64,000 bases of DNA from an uncultured Parafilimonas sp. (lineage in GTDB: Bacteria > Bacteroidota > Bacteroidia > Chitinophagales > Chitinophagaceae), in NCBI GenBank assembly GCA_903882935.1, contig CAIRZB010000007.1:62001-126000 (forward strand), read 5' to 3'. Positions 10,059-11,278 of the stretch are shown here, piece after piece. The notes under the pieces were generated by a model, which was not told the DNA's origin, did no database searches, and saw nothing but the letters and a program-made list of their open reading frames with translations. The position numbers were made by a program, and so were the translations under genes. How positions within the stretch are numbered: position 1 is the first letter of the stretch; each line of letters starts with the position of its first letter.

Positions 10059-10094
10059 GCAAAATAATTAAAGGATGTAAAAAATACATTTTGC
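10059..10094 (-). promoter_or_regulatory. Possible expression platform between riboswitch and CLC-F start
   Basis: A 7-base-pair stem, GCAAAAT with ATTTTGC (10088-10094 with 10059-10065), overlaps the 3' edge of the riboswitch and ends four bases before the ATG. An alternative small hairpin, ATGTA/TACAT, lies inside it. The two could switch with ligand binding to expose or hide the start codon. There is no clear terminator, so control of translation is the more natural reading. Confidence 0.4.
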
Positions 10095-10158
10095 AGGCGC
10101 CATCAGCAGCATGTTATAAAACCCACGCGGCGGTTGGGTAGGGAAGACACCATTTCCC
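10093..10158 (-). ncRNA. Fluoride (crcB) riboswitch
   Basis: On the minus strand a 5-bp stem GGGAA/TTCCC encloses an 8-base loop ATGGTGTC, followed by AACCGC, a hairpin (GCCGCGTG with CATGCTGC) and GCTGATGGCGCCTGC. This matches the fluoride aptamer: a P1 stem with an 8-base loop, the AACCGC segment, and a GCUGAUGG tail whose GGCGCC pairs back to GGTGTC of the loop as the pseudoknot (four Watson-Crick and two G-U pairs). It lies in the leader of a CLC-F gene, exactly where such riboswitches are known to occur. Fluoride binding would switch on expression. Confidence 0.92.
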
Positions 10159-10172
10159 TTTACGGTAAACAG

Positions 10173-10180
10173 CAAAGCTA
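10173..10180 (-). promoter_or_regulatory. Candidate -7 box for the fluoride riboswitch transcript
   Basis: TAGCTTTG on the minus strand matches TAnnTTTG exactly and lies 14 bases before the aptamer, so the RNA would start just ahead of P1. It overlaps the stop codon of the preceding lipoprotein gene. A second box, TACTTTTG, occurs a little further upstream inside that gene. Confidence 0.55.
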
Positions 10181-10585
10181 TAGGTTTCCGTCAAAAGTAT
10201 ATTTAAAATCGGTTCGCCAGGCATTGTTGCGCAGTACCACTTTTATTTTGCGGGCCACTTTGTCGTAGGAGTTCATATAATGTATAATGTGTACCGAATC
10301 GCTTACCGTTTCTTCCTCTTGCACCACTATCGAGGCAGTGCTGTATTCCGTTTTTTGTTCTGGGGTTTTGGCATTGTATACTGTTTTAATCTCCTGAAGG
10401 TCTTTATTATTCTCCCCGTCGGGCACCATATAAAAGGATGCTTTTGCAAAATCACCTTTTAAACAGCCATCAATAAACTCGCGGCCTGCGTCAAAAGCGT
10501 TGTCAGCAGCTGGGTAGCTTGTGCCTGAATTACAACCACCCAACACAATAAAAACAAAGCCTATAAAAATGTACCTGTTTTTCAT
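10178..10585 (-). CDS. Small lipoprotein of unknown function
   Basis: A 135-residue protein with a lipoprotein signal (hydrophobic stretch, then VLGGC at 14-18), so it is an envelope lipoprotein. The mature part has the helix-then-sheet look of small NTF2-like/DUF4878 lipoproteins, with a segment FIDGCLKGDFAKASFYM resembling FLTALEHGDIMEAKKYA of the next gene upstream, but I cannot confirm the family. Together with that gene it forms a same-strand pair (62-base gap) directly before the fluoride riboswitch. A TAACTTTA box 17 bases before the ATG could be its own -7 element. Confidence 0.75.
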   Translation of the reverse strand: MKNRYIFIGFVFIVLGGCNSGTSYPAADNAFDAGREFIDGCLKGDFAKASFYMVPDGENNKDLQEIKTVYNAKTPEQKTEYSTASIVVQEEETVSDSVHIIHYMNSYDKVARKIKVVLRNNAWRTDFKYTFDGNL

Positions 10586-10647: not shown

Positions 10648-11115
10648 TTAAGGTAACGAATCTAAACTTGTTTTAATTGAATCTATCGCGTTGCCTACCT
10701 CCTTCCTTACATCTTGCCCGGCCTTTTTAATGCCGTCAATGGCGGAATTAAATAGGGAGCCCAGATTAAATACCACTTTCCATTCGCCATTTTCTTTCCG
10801 CAGGCTAAAATCAATACCCGTATCGCTGGATTTACCTTTAACCTCTACTTTGGCATCGCTGCCATCTATACGCACATTATCGGTCACCACAAAATCTTGG
10901 TTTTTATACACGTCCACACTCCCGTTTTTGCCTTCACCTACCATGTTTAAAAACGATTGGCTATCGGCGCTGGCATATTTTTTTGCCTCCATTATGTCTC
11001 CATGTTCCAAAGCGGTTAAAAACTTAGCCAACACGCCTTGTGGAGATGATGCCGAACTACATCCAGCCAAAACTAGCAAACTGAGCAGGCAAACGGAAAC
11101 AAACAATTTTTTCAT
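10648..11115 (-). CDS. DUF4878-like lipoprotein
   Basis: From ATG 11115 the protein is 155 residues, with a lipoprotein signal ending VLAGC (lipobox at about 14-18). The domain after it (PQGVLAKFLTALEHGDI and a C-terminal GEWKVVF strand) fits the DUF4878 pattern seen in Bacteroidota lipoproteins. A longer frame starts at 11202 but would place the signal peptide 29 residues inside, so I use the inner ATG. The tail after residue 120 is helical (SAIDGIKKAGQDVRKEV). Function is unknown; it is probably a distant paralogue of the next gene downstream. Confidence 0.75.
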   Translation of the reverse strand: MKKLFVSVCLLSLLVLAGCSSASSPQGVLAKFLTALEHGDIMEAKKYASADSQSFLNMVGEGKNGSVDVYKNQDFVVTDNVRIDGSDAKVEVKGKSSDTGIDFSLRKENGEWKVVFNLGSLFNSAIDGIKKAGQDVRKEVGNAIDSIKTSLDSLP

Positions 11116-11278
11116 CCACGAAGTTTGCGCAAAACTACCGGCTATTCTTGAATTTATTTTTTGGATTTCGCCTGGCATGAAAAATCGCAGTAATGATGAC
11201 AAGGTTTTTTGCTAGTTCAAGCCGATAAGCAGTTATAGGTCTATTCGTTATTTGGTTTGGCTACCAATTGTTCTTCGC

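Follow-up and report, generated by a model that had tools for sequence, protein, structure and literature searches.

A fluoride riboswitch with a start-codon-adjoining helix predicted to control translation of a CLC-F antiporter gene in Bacteroidota

Known Fluoride Riboswitches and CLC-F Antiporters

Fluoride riboswitches located in front of CLC-F genes represent a long-known, textbook pairing. In the aptamer of these riboswitches, the pair between A40 and U48 is a linchpin held by fluoride (PMC8752731, PMC11077080). In the crcB switch of Bacillus cereus, the aptamer tail with U48 overlaps the expression platform, and the two folds are mutually exclusive (PMC11077080, PMC8752731); the same arrangement was found in the window, that is, the whole stretch of 64,000 nt analyzed in this study. 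The B. cereus switch is of the terminator type, whereas the platform strand in the window adjoins the AUG, is followed by no U-run, and looks like a lock on translation. In translational riboswitches that conceal the initiation region, a helix lies over the segment before the start codon, as in the window; unlike in those riboswitches, the helix in the window hides no Shine-Dalgarno sequence, as Bacteroidota lack such sites and tune initiation by the structure around the start codon (PMC6847099). For CLC-F proteins, the published signatures are GNNLI/GMGLI, GREGT/V, and GEVTP, and about 30% of CLC-F genes in general are controlled by riboswitches according to a review (PMC11139923).

The riboswitch and the CLC-F gene are both of well-known kinds. 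What is added here is a helix adjoining the start codon, which is consistently built in relatives. No description of this platform was found in a literature search, whose reach did not include the original riboswitch paper of 2012.

Fluoride Aptamer in the Leader

The features of the locus are listed in Table 1. By its covariance-model match, the segment upstream of the CLC-F gene is a fluoride riboswitch aptamer. The match to RF01734 scored 39.8 bits against a gathering cut-off of 34 (E 1.5e-7, window versus 4227 Rfam families), spans the full model (positions 1-64), and is the sole Rfam match above gathering within the window. A single copy of RF01734 was found by covariance-model search in the 5.5-Mb genome. 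The first-pass annotation had placed the aptamer at 10158-10093, which proved to be the core of the match; the RF01734 search that it had proposed as a check yielded a match above threshold, and the opposite outcome, no match, did not arise. All of the parts that it had named were also located, namely the P1 stem with an 8-nt loop, the AACCGC motif, the tail GCUGAUGG, and the pseudoknot, in which 5 of 5 pairs can form, two of them G-U. All parts of the known riboswitch are represented, including P3 and the A40/U48 partners (numbered after the T. petrophila aptamer). From its family membership, the aptamer would be expected to bind fluoride.

Table 1. Positions of the features identified at the locus.
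Feature	Position	Strand	Remarks
Candidate Bacteroidota -7 element TAGCTTTG	10180-10173	minus	Consensus TAnnTTTG; 14 nt upstream of aptamer
Fluoride riboswitch aptamer (crcB motif, RF01734)	10166-10087	minus	Covariance-model match
P1 stem-loop GGGAA-AUGGUGUC-UUCCC	10158-10141	minus	Arms 10158-10154 / 10145-10141
5' pseudoknot strand GGUGU	10151-10147	minus	Within the P1 loop
AACCGC	10135-10130	minus	
A40	10103	minus	Partner of U48
3' pseudoknot strand GCGCC	10100-10096	minus	Linchpin U48 next, at 10095
Locking helix, 5' strand GCCUGCAAAAU	10098-10088	minus	Overlaps three pseudoknot bases and U48
Locking helix, 3' strand AUUUUGCGGGC	10065-10055	minus	Adjoins AUG; no U-run after it
CLC-F type fluoride/proton antiporter, 471 aa	10054-8639	minus	PF00654, E 3e-66
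CLC-F signature GKGNNLI	9823-9803	minus	Sequence and published signature
CLC-F signature GREGT	9703-9689	minus	Sequence and published signature
CLC-F signature GGEVTP	9049-9032	minus	Sequence and published signature
Promoter-like TAnnTTTG box of the pyrophosphatase gene TATATTTG	8624-8617		
Inorganic pyrophosphatase	8494-7940	minus	Sole PF00719 copy in genome; 144 nt behind CLC-F
Small lipoprotein-like gene	10178-10585		Upstream
Small lipoprotein-like gene	10648-11202		Upstream; weakly DUF4878-like

CLC-F Antiporter Gene

The gene starting 32 nt downstream of the aptamer encodes, judged from the protein sequence, a fluoride/proton antiporter of the CLC-F type. Of the proteins with solved structures, 6D0J, a CLC-F, is the most similar (E 2.8e-62 over 385 residues), being far closer than the chloride-type CLC Sll0855 (E 5e-5 only). 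The CLC-F identity and the three characteristic sequence changes had been proposed in the first-pass annotation, and all three were recovered (Table 1). The signature regions match those of Eca-CLC-F (6D0J) and of the GNNLI subgroup; 6D0J carries GMNLV and GREGV, whereas the protein in the window carries GNNLI and GREGT. In a protein scan across genomes, the sole match was found in Pedobacter nutrimenti (58% identity). Fluoride transport by this protein is expected from its family membership. No match to CrcB/Fluc was found in the genome, so the CLC-F protein is the only fluoride exporter recognized there.

Distribution of the Pairing in the Host Family

In total, 197 genomes of the host's family were analyzed. 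RF01734 matches above the cut-off were found in 59 of these genomes and close relatives of the CLC-F protein in 68. The riboswitch is located directly before the CLC-F gene in 52 loci, 51 of them in addition to the one in the window. About three quarters of the CLC-F genes in the family are riboswitch-controlled, in comparison with the general share of about 30% given in the review. Matches to RF01734 below the cut-off, such as the one in the same-genus genome G114 (24.5 bits), were excluded; most of them have no fitting gene downstream. The start codon is typically located 21-58 nt behind the aptamer, with a distance of 157 nt in one locus. In the aptamers of these 52 loci, the pseudoknot is fully paired in 49, and the A40/U48 partners are invariant in all 52.

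Promoter and Neighboring Genes

The TAnnTTTG sequence is the consensus of the -7 element for the housekeeping sigma factor of Bacteroidota (PMC6847099). It was found within 60 nt upstream of the aptamer in 39 of the 52 leaders, in almost all cases at a distance of 5-16 nt, the expected number being 0.03 per leader as estimated from sequence further upstream. The position of the candidate box in the window suggests that transcription begins approximately at the 5' end of the aptamer. The first three bases of TAGCTTTG also serve as the stop codon for the gene upstream. This 135-aa lipoprotein-like gene adjoins the riboswitch in six relatives as well.

Downstream of the CLC-F gene lies a gene for inorganic pyrophosphatase, a fluoride-sensitive enzyme. 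A fluoride operon including this gene was considered and rejected: of the 25 loci with enough downstream sequence, only two (L083 and L085) share the gene order, and the pyrophosphatase gene has its own TAnnTTTG box.

Proposed Locking Helix at the Start Codon

The aptamer tail segment GCCUGCAAAAU can pair over 11 bp with AUUUUGCGGGC, touching the AUG. The predicted pair probability of this helix in the OFF state in the window is 0.75-1.0. As the helix uses three pseudoknot bases and U48, the aptamer and the helix are mutually exclusive.

A helix at the start codon was found in all 52 riboswitch-CLC-F loci of the family, its last pair lying anywhere from 7 nt upstream of the start codon to the codon's own first base. 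When the tails and start-site partners were permuted between loci, none of 10,000 permutations reached the true pairing. In a sequence-only, structure-blind MAFFT alignment, the register of which depends on a match to the conserved TTGYAGG motif, 89.4% of the helix cells are paired, in comparison with 35-43% (maximum 42.5%) in slid registers. Cells changed on both sides number 56, versus 22 in shuffles, and the compensatory exchanges include A-U/G-C, C-G/A-U, and A-U/U-A.

Retention of nucleotides 45-48 by the aptamer lowers the stability of the hairpin in the window from -16.0 to -5.8 kcal/mol, a loss of 10.2; the median loss for the 52 loci is 7.8 kcal/mol. When the pseudoknot bases were barred from pairing in a simple model, part of the helix (9 bp) persisted before the AUG, so full opening is not predicted for the ON state. 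The remaining helix would presumably be opened by the ribosome. The leader as a whole is not unusually stable in comparison with shuffles (z -1.47). A second OFF helix, in which the P1 loop pairs with codons 2-6 in the minimum-energy fold of the leader in the window, was dismissed as a chance pairing, since it beats shuffles (p<0.05) in only 1 of the 52 loci.

Alternative Explanations

Pairing of the tail into an intrinsic terminator, with control by transcription termination in the style of B. cereus, appears unlikely. Such a switch would have the same overlap of the tail as the one in B. cereus (PMC11077080), and a hairpin followed by a T-run does occur in some other Bacteroidota fluoride riboswitches (L106, L117, L125). 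However, the locking helix in the window runs straight into AUGAAGGGC, with no U-run, and was not reported by a terminator scan. Additionally, the 8 bases after the helix contain fewer than five T in 47 of the 52 loci, and in most loci the start codon is located within these bases.

It is even less probable that the aptamer is a relic with the right appearance but with neither fluoride binding nor a regulatory role. Its score is among the lowest above the cut-off in the family, and its P3 is longer than in the consensus and contains one mismatch, the aptamer comprising 80 nt in comparison with 64 nt in the RF01734 model. This long P3 with its mismatch probably accounts for the modest score, and the core bases, the pseudoknot, A40/U48, and the 11-bp platform are all intact.

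Least probable of all, and scarcely credible, is a role of TTGYAGG as a signal that recruits ribosomes to the CLC-F gene rather than as a part of the switch, since this element, although conserved in sequence and position and also present in one riboswitch-less gene (L151), covaries with the aptamer tail (CCUGAUUAUA with UAUAAUCAGG) and is lacking in 12 of the 13 riboswitch-less CLC-F genes of the host family with a clear start, none of which has an RF01734 match. The covariation of the 3' strand with the tail and its lack in riboswitch-less genes indicate that the element belongs to the switch.

The exception, L151, is a CLC-F gene with no detectable aptamer; the TTTGCAGG located directly before its ATG may be left over from a riboswitch that was lost.

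Proposed Mechanism

A fluoride-responsive ON riboswitch very probably controls translation of the CLC-F gene by means of a helix that locks the start site. The direct basis for this model consists of the aptamer, the identity of the gene, the helix, its compensatory changes, and the absence of a U-run. According to the model, transcription would start at the Bacteroidota promoter with its -7 box just before the aptamer. In the absence of fluoride, the tail GCCUGCAAAAU would leave the pseudoknot and pair with AUUUUGCGGGC, burying the initiation region. In the presence of fluoride and Mg, the tail would be retained by the pseudoknot and the A40-U48 pair, the locking helix would be left without its strongest pairs, and translation would yield the antiporter, which would expel fluoride in exchange for protons. 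The direction of the switch (ON with fluoride) is expected from family membership, and control of translation rather than termination is predicted. As in translational riboswitches, the helix excludes the aptamer and covers the initiation region, and no intrinsic terminator was found. Since initiation in Bacteroidota is tuned by structure, a helix adjoining the AUG would be a sensible lock.

This model provides a simple, testable account of riboswitch action where translation starts without Shine-Dalgarno sites, and mutants suggested by the locking helix would allow structure-gated initiation in Bacteroidota to be tested directly. The element could perhaps also be used as a fluoride-inducible expression part for these bacteria. 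On a broader scale, the CLC-F fluoride riboswitches of Bacteroidota may form a distinct, as yet undescribed class of platforms in which a short covarying helix of the tail with the bases adjoining the AUG gates Shine-Dalgarno-free initiation, with the AUGs of Fluc genes lying inside the helix and their first codons constrained by the RNA; we rate this wider proposal at somewhat less than an even chance.

Other Fluoride-Riboswitch Loci in Bacteroidota

In six Fluc/crcB loci (L002, L003, L006, L009, L018, and L128), the AUG and the first codons are complementary to the aptamer tail. The first codons in that strand read AUG UAC AGG, AUG UUC AGG, or AUG AAC AGG, so residues 2 and 3 look constrained by the RNA switch.

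Fluoride riboswitches were also found in front of other genes. In two loci (L117 and L125), the riboswitch and a terminator-like hairpin precede a gene for a dynamin-family GTPase, assigned by PF00350 in L117 (E 1.4e-27) and by similarity on visual inspection in L125. We know of no association between fluoride riboswitches and dynamin-family GTPases in the literature. In L136, a riboswitch match is located shortly before a gene for a PAP2-type membrane phosphatase (PF01569, E 1.3e-16). In L131 and L132, the match precedes a short membrane protein that is PAP2-like by eye and has no Pfam match. Finally, in L064 and L068, a second fluoride riboswitch, some 2.7 kb away from that of the CLC-F gene, precedes a gene for an MFS transporter (PF07690 in L064, E 1e-42).
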